DNA of 64,000 nt from Anaeromonas gelatinilytica (GTDB lineage Bacteria; Bacillota; Clostridia; Tissierellales; SIT17), in the NCBI RefSeq assembly GCF_016820635.1, contig NZ_WSFU01000088.1, positions 1 to 64,000 on the forward strand, read 5' to 3'. The translations under genes were made by a program, and so were the position numbers. Under the pieces are notes generated by a model that did not search any database, was not told the DNA's origin, and saw only the letters and a program-made list of their open reading frames with translations. Of the stretch, positions 1,150-5,690 are shown one piece after another (the stretch's first letter is position 1; each line of letters begins with the position of its first letter).

Positions 1150-1383
1150 GTGAACAGAAAAGAAATATTATTAGATTTATACAAAACTAAAGATGATCTT
1201 GATCTAAAATATCAAGAACTTTTCTTTGAAGTTTTCAGTAAACATATCAATGAGTTAGATTTATCTCATGATGATTATCAAAATCTACTAAATAACTTTA
1301 AAGAACTTTTATTACTAATCAATCAATATAGTACTGATTTAGTAAATCAATATTTTAATTGTATTACTAAAATAATTGATTAG
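1150..1383 (+). CDS. small acidic helical protein, skin cargo; candidate excision factor
   Basis: This 77-residue protein uses a GTG start preceded by GAAGGGAGG at good spacing and is followed by a very strong terminator, so it looks like a real single-gene transcript. The product is rich in Leu, Asp, Asn and Lys, predicted fully helical, and has no membrane segment, signal peptide or cysteine cluster. I do not recognise the family. In C. difficile the skin element encodes a small recombination directionality factor required with the recombinase for excision. Size and location make this gene one of two candidates here, but that is inference from context only. A GTGATATT sequence near 1037 recalls a sigma-E -35 box, without a convincing -10. 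Confidence 0.6.
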   Translation: MNRKEILLDLYKTKDDLDLKYQELFFEVFSKHINELDLSHDDYQNLLNNFKELLLLINQYSTDLVNQYFNCITKIID

Positions 1384-1390
1384 TAATTTT

Positions 1391-1436
1391 TTATTTTCCC
1401 TTTCTATGGTAAAATTTTCATAGAAAGGGAAAATAA
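1391..1436. terminator. bidirectional terminator between convergent genes
   Basis: A perfect 18-bp stem, positions 1391-1408 paired with 1419-1436, has a 10-base loop and A/T-rich flanks on both sides. It sits between the convergent small genes at 1150-1383 and 1449-1673 and can end both transcripts. Confidence 0.85.
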
Positions 1437-1448
1437 AAAACTACTATC

Positions 1449-1673
1449 TTATTTTTCAGCTTTCTCCTTTATCTCTACTTTTTTATTTTCATATTCTGCA
1501 TTTATCTTTAATTTTTCCTCATAAGACAATTCATTCCATATCTCCCATCCTATTTCTCTCATTTCCCTACGAATCCTCTCTATCTTTTCTTTAGGCATAT
1601 TTGGATCTGGAGCTATTATATGAACAATGCTATTACCTATTTTGTAAGTAGCTGCATATTTTTGTTCTTGCAT
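1449..1673 (-). CDS. small conserved mobile-element protein (YAATYKIG family)
   Basis: This 74-residue protein starts at the second of two nearby ATGs; the run GGGGGA lies seven bases before it and too close to the first. The N-terminal YAATYKIGNSIVHIIAPDP and the later GWEIWNEL and INAEYENK stretches match, as I recall, a family of small unnamed proteins encoded next to large serine recombinases in clostridial prophages and skin elements. It has no membrane segment; the C-terminus is charged (KKVEIKEKAEK). The conserved link to serine recombinases makes it a candidate helper or directionality factor. No function is established that I know of. Confidence 0.65.
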   Translation of the reverse strand: MQEQKYAATYKIGNSIVHIIAPDPNMPKEKIERIRREMREIGWEIWNELSYEEKLKINAEYENKKVEIKEKAEK

Positions 1674-1679
1674 AAACAT

Positions 1680-1995
1680 TCCCCCTTGCTTAATTTTATG
1701 AGGGGTCTAGATTGTACTATTAAACATTTATAGTTTGCCACTCAGGTAATGTCAAGAAAAATTTATAAAACTCAATAATGAAATTAAAGATATGAAAAAT
1801 AATTTAAATGATTTTAGAGAAGAAACTCATTATAACTTTAACAGGTTAAAAAATAAACTTGATAATATAGAGCTCTATTTGATATTTCCTTATATTCTCT
1901 TCATTTAAATATCTCTATATAAAAATTATTTCTTTCCATCCAATCTTATTAATAATTATTCAAAATAAATCATAAAATTAAATTGAGGTGATTTT
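1680..1995. other. intergenic region with a gene remnant (1792-1908, plus strand)
   Basis: The roughly 320 bases before the recombinase hold no intact gene. On the plus strand an open frame from about 1770 to a stop at 1906-1908 encodes a charged, coiled-coil-like stretch (NNEIKDMKNNLNDFREE, then HYNFNRLKNKLDN). The only in-frame ATG is at 1792 and has no ribosome site. It looks like the tail of a decayed small coiled-coil gene. The recombinase ribosome site GAGGTG is at 1984-1989. I found no promoter I trust. Confidence 0.3.
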
Positions 1996-3543: not shown

Positions 3544-3989
3544 ACTGTTAGTGGCAATTCATTACCTTCTTTATCTACTCCAATTGGTTCTTGAAGATAA
3601 ACTTCTGATTTAATTTTTTTATCTGATCTAATACACATTAAAATTTCATTATCAATACATCTTGCTGCATAGGTGGCTAATCTTGTTCCTTTAGTTCTAT
3701 CAAAAGTTGAAATAGCTTTTATTAGGCCTATAGTACCAATAGATATTAAATCATCCACTTCTCTTCCTGTATTATGATACTTTTTAACGATATGTGCCAC
3801 TAAACGTAAATTACGTTCTATTAATATGTTTTTTGCCTCCTCATCACCCTGTTCATGAAGTATTAAATATCTAGTCTCTTCTTCTTTACTTAATGGTTGA
3901 GGAAAAGAATTATTATTAGAAATATACCCTAAAAAAAATGATACGGGTCTAACTAAATCTAAAATAGTAAATAGAAGTGAAGCCCACAT
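3477..3989 (-). pseudogene. sigK: sigK 5' segment (pro-sigma-K N-terminal half), split by skin
   Basis: This encodes the start of the late mother-cell sigma factor. ATG at 3989 follows GGAGGTG; an upstream TTG in frame overlaps that ribosome site and is rejected. Residues 1-20 are hydrophobic (MWASLLFTILDLVRPVSFFL), the pro-sequence that tethers pro-SigK to membrane until SpoIVFB cleavage, and GYISNN aligns with the B. subtilis cleavage region. Then come FPQPLS, region 1.2/2 ([40 protein letters not shown]) and DKEGNE. SigK similarity ends at about GNELPLT; the remaining residues to the stop at 3477 are junction sequence antisense to the recombinase. Regions 3 and 4 are missing and should lie at the far end of the element. 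Not a dead gene: a rearranging one. Confidence 0.92.
3525..3556. repeat. palindromic junction, probable recombinase attachment site
   Basis: TGCCACTAA (3525-3533) and TTAGTGGCA (3548-3556) form a perfect 9-bp inverted repeat around a 14-base centre. It lies exactly where SigK similarity ends and spans the recombinase stop codon (3541-3543). Large serine recombinases bind imperfectly palindromic sites of about this length. The pentamer AATGA, the crossover repeat reported for B. subtilis skin, is three bases away on the sigK side (3559-3563, minus strand), so the exact crossover could be there or at the palindrome centre. Confidence 0.6.
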
Positions 3990-4024
3990 TAATACGCACA
4001 CCTCCAAAATATTAAGTCATATTA

Positions 4025-4061: not shown

Positions 4062-5690
4062 TTATTTTAATTTATTTATTTCTTCTAATATTTCATTAAA
4101 AACAACTCCAGCTGTACTTGCTCCAGATTTATCTCCAATATCTTCCACAACTATAGTTATTGCATATTTAGGATTATTTATAGGAAAATATCCAGTAAAC
4201 AATCCATCATTACTACCATTTTCCTTTTCTGCTGTACCAGTTTTCCCAGCAGCTCCTCCATATATATTACCACCAATATATTCACTTCCAGTTCCGTTTT
4301 TTACAACTTCTTCCATATATTTTTTTATGATTTGTGTATATTTGCTATTTATTAACCATTTATCTTCTTTTCTATTAAATTTTTTAGATTCCTTTCCCTT
4401 ATTTGTAGCATATCCTTTTATTATAGATAAATCTTTCCTTATACCATCATTAGCAATTATCATTGTCATATTATTAATTTGAATAGGAGTTAATCGAATA
4501 TGTTCTTGCCCTATAGCTAAATTTCCTATTCCTGCACCTCTTACTTCGTTTAAAGAAGATATTATTCCTGTTACTTCTCCATCTAAACCAATATCAACAA
4601 TATCATCTAAACCAATATTTTTAGCTGTTTCAATTATCTTTTCTCCTCCTAACTTTTCAGCTAATTGAATAAATATTGTATTACATGATTCAGCATAAGC
4701 TTCTTTTAATGTTATCTCTCCATGAACAATATCATCATGACAAGAATACTTTTGATTATTAACTTCAATAGATCCTTCACAAATCATTTTCTCATCTAAA
4801 TCAATATCATTCTCCAATGCACTTAATAAAACAATTGTTTTAAATATAGAGGCAGGATAATAACGAAATTTAATACTTCTATTCATTTGAGCATTATCAT
4901 TAGATCTATTACTACTTGCTATATCATTTAAGTCAAAATCTGGTTGACTTGTCAAGGCTAGTATATCTCCCGACTCTACATCTGTTACTATGGCAGAACC
5001 ATAATATTGTCTAGATTCCATTGCACTTTCTACAATTTTTTGTATTTCATAATCTATAGTTAATTGAATAGAATTTCTTATGTTATCTTTATTTTTATTA
5101 GCCTGTATATAATTTTCTTTATCATATAATATCCTGTTTTTACCATCAAATGTTAATAATAACTTATTATTTTCTCCTTTTGATAAAATTTCATTATATG
5201 CTTTTTTAATTCCAATCCCATCTCCATTTTCATTAATATATCCTATTACATGAGCTAAAATATTTTCATCATTATACTCTTTTAATTCTTCTAATACAAA
5301 AGTATTTTTTATATTAACATCATCAATATTCTCTTTTATTGGAACTTTTATTATTCTATCTTTCTCAATTTCCATATATTTTTTTAATTTTTCTTCAGAA
5401 TAATCTATTTTTTCTAATAATTCATTATAATAATTCTCATCGCTAATTAAATTATACCTTGGTATATATAAGTATTTCTGACTTTCTCTATTAGTTAAAG
5501 GAATCATATTCCTATCATATATAGTCCCATTATAAGAAGTTGATATCTCATAATATCGTTGACTTTCAGCTTTTTCTTTATACTCTGGTCCCTTAACAAG
5601 TTGTATCCAAAATGTTCTTAAAATTATTATTAGAAAAATTATAATAAATATTCTATATAAATTAATTAATCTTTTTTCCAAAGAAAACAT
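4062..5690 (-). CDS. class B penicillin-binding protein (transpeptidase)
   Basis: This 542-residue membrane-anchored transpeptidase cross-links peptidoglycan outside the membrane. One signal anchor lies at about residues 12-30, followed by the PBP dimer-type domain with GTIYDRNMIPLTN. The catalytic motifs are all present: SxxK as SIFK in YYPASIFK (near residue 290), SCN (near 345) and KTGT near 490. There is no C-terminal PASTA domain, unlike the PBP at 61363-63570. ATG at 5690 follows GGAGG; an in-frame ATG 13 codons earlier lies before that ribosome site and is rejected. It lies between udk and sigK, so a role in sporulation peptidoglycan is possible but unproven. No specific family name can be given with confidence. 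Confidence 0.88.
   Translation of the reverse strand: MFSLEKRLINLYRIFIIIFLIIILRTFWIQLVKGPEYKEKAESQRYYEISTSYNGTIYDRNMIPLTNRESQKYLYIPRYNLISDENYYNELLEKIDYSEEKLKKYMEIEKDRIIKVPIKENIDDVNIKNTFVLEELKEYNDENILAHVIGYINENGDGIGIKKAYNEILSKGENNKLLLTFDGKNRILYDKENYIQANKNKDNIRNSIQLTIDYEIQKIVESAMESRQYYGSAIVTDVESGDILALTSQPDFDLNDIASSNRSNDNAQMNRSIKFRYYPASIFKTIVLLSALENDIDLDEKMICEGSIEVNNQKYSCHDDIVHGEITLKEAYAESCNTIFIQLAEKLGGEKIIETAKNIGLDDIVDIGLDGEVTGIISSLNEVRGAGIGNLAIGQEHIRLTPIQINNMTMIIANDGIRKDLSIIKGYATNKGKESKKFNRKEDKWLINSKYTQIIKKYMEEVVKNGTGSEYIGGNIYGGAAGKTGTAEKENGSNDGLFTGYFPINNPKYAITIVVEDIGDKSGASTAGVVFNEILEEINKLK

Follow-up and report, generated by a model that had tools for sequence, protein, structure and literature searches.

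We propose that a 74-residue protein encoded within the skin element that splits sigK in Anaeromonas gelatinilytica is, with high probability, the recombination directionality factor (RDF) that acts on this element in the mother cell, which we infer from homology, linkage, and promoter. The analysis covered a stretch of 64,000 nucleotides, hereafter the window, together with related loci and genomes. The RDFs of large serine recombinases (LSRs) have little sequence in common and have usually been found singly. In the skin element of C. difficile, the experimentally proven directionality factor is CD1234, a protein of 72 residues under the control of sigma-E and SpoIIID; excision depends on it genetically, it interacts with the LSR of its element, and no significant similarity to database proteins was reported for it (PMC5025042). 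Our profile comparisons place the 74-residue protein in a previously unrecognised and unannotated family that includes the C. difficile protein we assigned to CD1234, and our literature search found no paper naming a CD1234 family.

Because the window starts at the beginning of contig C98, most of the element and the C-terminal half of sigK are missing from the assembly, in which a search for that half was negative. In the part that is present (Table 1), sigK is split, an LSR lies beside one of its halves, and a short core is found that is common to both element/sigK junctions, the second junction being known only from same-genus relatives. Complete elements of about 18 and 21 kb lie between two sigK halves in the same-genus genomes G001 and G003, with the identical nine bases of the att core GGTAATGAA at both junctions in G001; in genome G002, sigK is uninterrupted and reads GGTAACGAA at this site. 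Comparison of these sequences places the crossover in the common GGTAATGAA. The window LSR is 69-70% identical to the LSRs of the G001 and G003 skins, and SprA (YokA) of phage SPbeta is only a distant relative of it (phmmer 1.2e-43). Elsewhere in the window part of the element, a gene at 371-902 has a signal-peptide-like start and is apparently broken into two frames, the larger of which had no Pfam match. The same-genus skins also contain small Spo0E-like genes (PF09388) related to sporulation phosphatases (L032 5941-6111, G001:C1:1820941-1821111; L033 8508-8675, G003:C7:95508-95675), which lie within an element that interrupts sigK.

Table 1 Features of the skin element and the adjoining sigK fragment in the window, in order of position
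Feature	Positions	Strand	Details
77-residue acidic helical protein, genus-restricted skin gene	1150..1383	+	GTG start; Shine-Dalgarno GGGAGG
Inverted repeat with a 23-bp stem and A and T runs, putative bidirectional terminator between the convergent genes	1387..1440	.	Arms 1387-1409 and 1418-1440
74-residue CD1234-family protein, proposed RDF	1449..1673	-	ATG at 1673, stop at 1449; Shine-Dalgarno GGGGG
Promoter-like block of sigma-E type of the 74-residue gene	1693..1722	-	TAATAGTACAATCTAGACCCCTCATAAAAT (ATA-N17-CATAAAAT)
LSR of the skin element, 515 residues	1996..3543	+	Catalytic motif YLRKSRSDEE intact
N-terminal part of sigK, interrupted by the element	3546..4007	-	TIGR02846 positions 2-145
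att core at the element/sigK junction	3558..3566	-	GGTAATGAA on the sigK sense strand

The 74- and 77-residue open reading frames are real genes. Both have orthologues in the two same-genus genomes, with identities of 52-60% for the 74-residue protein and 68-70% for the 77-residue protein, and dN was lower than dS for each gene in comparisons with these orthologues. An alternative start at 1679 is possible for the former, which would then have 76 residues. The inverted repeat between the two genes folds at -33.6 kcal/mol (z -10.4, with none of 200 shuffles as good), and a consensus terminator scanner called no terminator at 1387-1440. The sequence-only reading of this DNA had described two intact convergent genes with good ribosome sites, a shared strong terminator, and a recombinase nearby; the two genes, a hairpin between them, and an LSR are present in the window. 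It had also taken the nearness of the recombinase as an argument for a role of these genes. In the G001 and G003 skins, a distance of 12-14 kb separates the LSR from the two genes, which are divergent there. The convergent layout next to the recombinase is therefore peculiar to the window strain, and we dropped the argument from nearness because both genes lie far from the LSR in these relatives.

To identify CD1234 in sequence data, we located the split sigK in genomes of the C. difficile group and assigned CD1234 to a 72-residue, GTG-started gene there on the basis of its length, skin location, order from the 3' half of sigK, and promoter position, and not by locus tag. The assigned protein has a computed pI of 4.95, whereas 5.5 was published for CD1234, and an exact match to the published SpoIIID site, TGTAACAAT, was absent from the C. 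difficile skin copies examined. Three C. difficile LSR loci considered as skins (L066, L071, and L124) were rejected as such, as they are not in sigK.

An iterative profile started from the 74-residue protein and run over 7829 open reading frames grew from 21 to 74 members and then stopped, recruiting the assigned CD1234 at E 3.3e-4. When all C. difficile skin copies were held out, the assigned protein scored E 3.3e-5 among the 7829 frames, with the best reversed decoy at 0.22; the window protein, when itself held out of the profile, scored E 6.8e-15. The noise level of the family profile was set by best E values of 4.3 for host open reading frames of the window and 0.34 for reversed decoys. 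A profile made from CD1234 only placed family entries in all of the first 16 ranks, ahead of any unrelated frame, and hhalign matched the family profile to CD1234 at 92% (E 6e-7). Intermediates (such as L049, L051, L070, and L076) are needed to establish the homology, because hhalign gave a weak match (10%) when the sigK-skin subfamily was compared directly with CD1234 on its own.

Besides falling into one profile family, the two proteins are alike in being small, acidic, and encoded by a skin element in the same sigK region, in having LSR partners that are 51% identical (the window LSR against that of the C. difficile skin), and in lying behind a sigma-E-type promoter at an equal distance from the start. 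The degree of acidity varies, with a pI of 6.6 for the window protein and 4.9-5.4 for its orthologues in G001 and G003. They differ in that no pairwise similarity between them is detectable without the intermediates, and also in shape, the C. difficile protein having a longer N-terminal extension and the window protein a longer C-terminal helix. A scan of viral contigs with the C. difficile protein returned one phage-like IMG/VR contig, L130, in which an 88% relative of CD1234 (5336-5551) lies beside replication genes and has the same promoter block and an ATG at the same start position.

The family is closely tied to one group of recombinases. A single-sequence search with the 74-residue protein gave more than 12 clear matches among 80 related LSR loci, and with the profile a family member was present in 64 of the 80. 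Family genes are opposite in strand to the LSR in 66 of 66 cases and upstream of it in 64 of 65, the closest being 61 bp and the farthest over 9 kb away; the p-value for the linkage and strand bias is about 1e-20 or less. No member was detected in the other 16 LSR loci, about five of which are cut off close to the LSR. A search with the family profile that was independent of LSRs, conducted over 391 genomes of the class, yielded 18 matches in 17 genomes besides the window; an LSR was found in the same fetched stretch (within about 10 kb) for 14 of the 18, on the opposite strand in 13 of those 14. Among the matches without an LSR, two come from short contigs or lie close to the edge of a contig, and a further one, L148, appears to be false. 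It had been claimed that this family is associated with serine recombinases in clostridial elements, and that finding it commonly away from them would speak against a role in excision; both surveys bear out the association, and the genome search did not find the 74-residue family to be common away from LSRs. Distances among family proteins also correlated with distances among their LSRs (Mantel r 0.58 overall and 0.84 among sigK elements, p 0.0005), which we treat as supporting evidence only because co-inheritance alone could produce the correlation.

The region upstream of the 74-residue gene contains a promoter-like block of the form ATA-N17-CATAAA(A/T)T that ends about 20 bp before the start and has the same layout as at CD1234; 2 of 200 shuffles were as good. 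The elements TAATAGTACAATCTAG and TCATAAA are identical in the window, G001, and G003, despite differing flanks and the changed position of the gene. One mapped sigma-E promoter of C. difficile reads ATA-N16-CATATATA (PMC3789822), and the CD1234 transcript starts 14 bp before the start codon (PMC5025042). Across the family, a composite motif, ATA(A/G)(G/T)AC followed by (A/C)ATA, was present upstream of 26 of 69 family genes vs 6 of 939 control frames, which were other open reading frames with ribosome sites in the same loci (Fisher p 2e-27); this p-value is optimistic because the patterns were chosen after the upstream regions had been viewed, but the contrast is still large. The sequence ATAGGACAA occurs 41 times in 1.48 Mb, with 21 of these occurrences just upstream of family genes, and GGACAA may resemble a SpoIIID site. 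In L102, an LSR locus in which no family member was detected, a ATAGGACAA block precedes a 59-residue open reading frame directly upstream of the LSR (about 9880 to 9659, minus strand) that is possibly a diverged family member. In elements of the Sporomusa/Pelosinus type (L047, L053-L055, and L059-L063), a conserved block of about ATAGGGYNGTCC replaces ATAGGACAA in the upstream region.

An AlphaFold model of the 74-residue protein (pLDDT 88) consists of a beta hairpin at residues 8-19 and helices at 28-48 and 51-73; the model of the 77-residue protein had a pLDDT of 66. Fold searches with the former against solved structures (Foldseek and VIA-align) gave nothing significant, and a profile search of solved structures gave no credible match. 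Third in the fold search, at E 4.8, came the RDF from 9dxd, the SPbeta integrase complex, with another 9dxd match at E 8.4; these non-significant matches are the only form in which SprB, the SPbeta factor, appeared, and they were not counted as evidence. A few family members matched the PHROGs phrog_9018 and phrog_15837, neither of which is annotated as a directionality factor, and the 74-residue window protein itself matched no PHROG at E 0.01. Searches of phage records with both small proteins (tblastn) and of viral contigs with the 74-residue query returned no match. Matches of the two proteins in Pfam, NCBIfam, and PHROGs were discarded as below curated cut-offs or at chance level.

In the mechanism that we consider most consistent with these data, sigma-E would act in the mother cell at ATA-N17-CATAAAAT to transcribe the 74-residue gene, and the protein would bind the LSR of the element, probably near its coiled-coil region, and switch it so that attL x attR excision replaces attP x attB integration. 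Joining of the sigK halves at GGTAATGAA would then allow sigma-K to be made. As a small excision factor for an LSR at a sporulation gene, the 74-residue protein would have a role like that of Skr of the B. subtilis skin and SprB of phage SPbeta, small factors that direct an LSR, in the mother cell, to excise the element lying in a sporulation gene (PMC6957869).

Linkage, co-inheritance, and strand bias would fit equally well if the family proteins were some other LSR-linked accessory, such as one that represses the recombinase gene, helps integration, or stabilizes the LSR. In many elements the family gene lies divergently next to the LSR, which is typical of regulators too. The predicted fold of a hairpin and two helices, with no significant match among solved structures, leaves room for such roles. 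We nonetheless regard them as unlikely, given that excision genetically requires the relative assigned to CD1234, which also interacts with its LSR (PMC5025042), and that a family gene as far as 9 kb from the LSR would be odd for a local regulator. Still less probable is that the element of the window strain is no longer excisable and that both of its small genes are relics: the contig simply begins within the element, which retains an intact LSR, 74-residue gene, promoter block, and att core, and two relatives have both junctions undamaged, even though the C-terminal half of sigK is absent from the assembly and the element gene at 371-902 looks broken.

The sequence-only reading had held that either small protein could control excision and had proposed that both be compared by profile with CD1234. 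This is well supported for the 74-residue protein, which has the linkage to LSRs, the promoter, and, by way of the intermediates, the held-out and hhalign matches to CD1234 given above. It is not supported for the 77-residue protein, which shows no similarity to CD1234 (hhalign, 0.2% probability) and has relatives only in the G001 and G003 skins, with none in the 391 genomes of the class, the 80 LSR loci, phage records, or viral contigs; nor was a sigma-E-like site conserved in all three strains found upstream of its gene. Were it the directionality factor of the skins of this genus, and the 74-residue protein a leftover, its acidity (pI 4.7), intactness, and conservation in both same-genus skins would be accounted for, but the 74-residue gene is likewise conserved and under selection, and we give this possibility hardly any credence. 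We rejected the 77-residue protein as the excision factor on its distribution, its lack of similarity to CD1234, and its lack of a conserved promoter; its gene would be a passenger or have another function in the skin.

The preferred reading of the 74-residue protein as an RDF has a wider setting in the insertion sites of the LSR clade. Judged by the similarity of flanking fragments, sigK is the site of 16 of the 80 LSR loci, and cotJC or its operon that of 38, while five adjoin an unnamed gene, three adjoin an asparagine-synthase-like gene, and 18 are without assignment. The elements at the cotJC site fall within L074-L126, mostly beside a CotJC fragment, and their flanking fragments were confirmed as Mn-catalase/CotJC and CotJB. 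In genome G002, where sigK is intact, a different element of the same LSR clade (L038, G002:C53, 12266-14219) lies beside a cotJC fragment. Our literature search found no paper joining cotJC with an intervening element. That cotJC is a coat gene of the mother cell would account for a common mother-cell promoter, and the insertion pattern suggests that this gene may be a second widespread site of elements removed during sporulation.

Considering these observations together, we think it fairly likely that CD1234 is a member of a Firmicutes-wide family of RDFs that serves one clade of LSRs. On this reading, most elements of the clade interrupt sporulation genes of the mother cell (sigK and, newly, cotJC), and a sigma-E-type promoter of the form ATAGGACAA-N12..15-(A/C)ATA is often shared by their factor genes, so that developmentally timed excision would be a property of the clade as a whole. 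Matched pairs of LSR and RDF would be useful as reversible tools for genome engineering. The family profile and the promoter signature would make it possible to predict the RDFs of dozens of elements directly from sequence, and the timing of skin-element excision becomes testable across many spore-formers.
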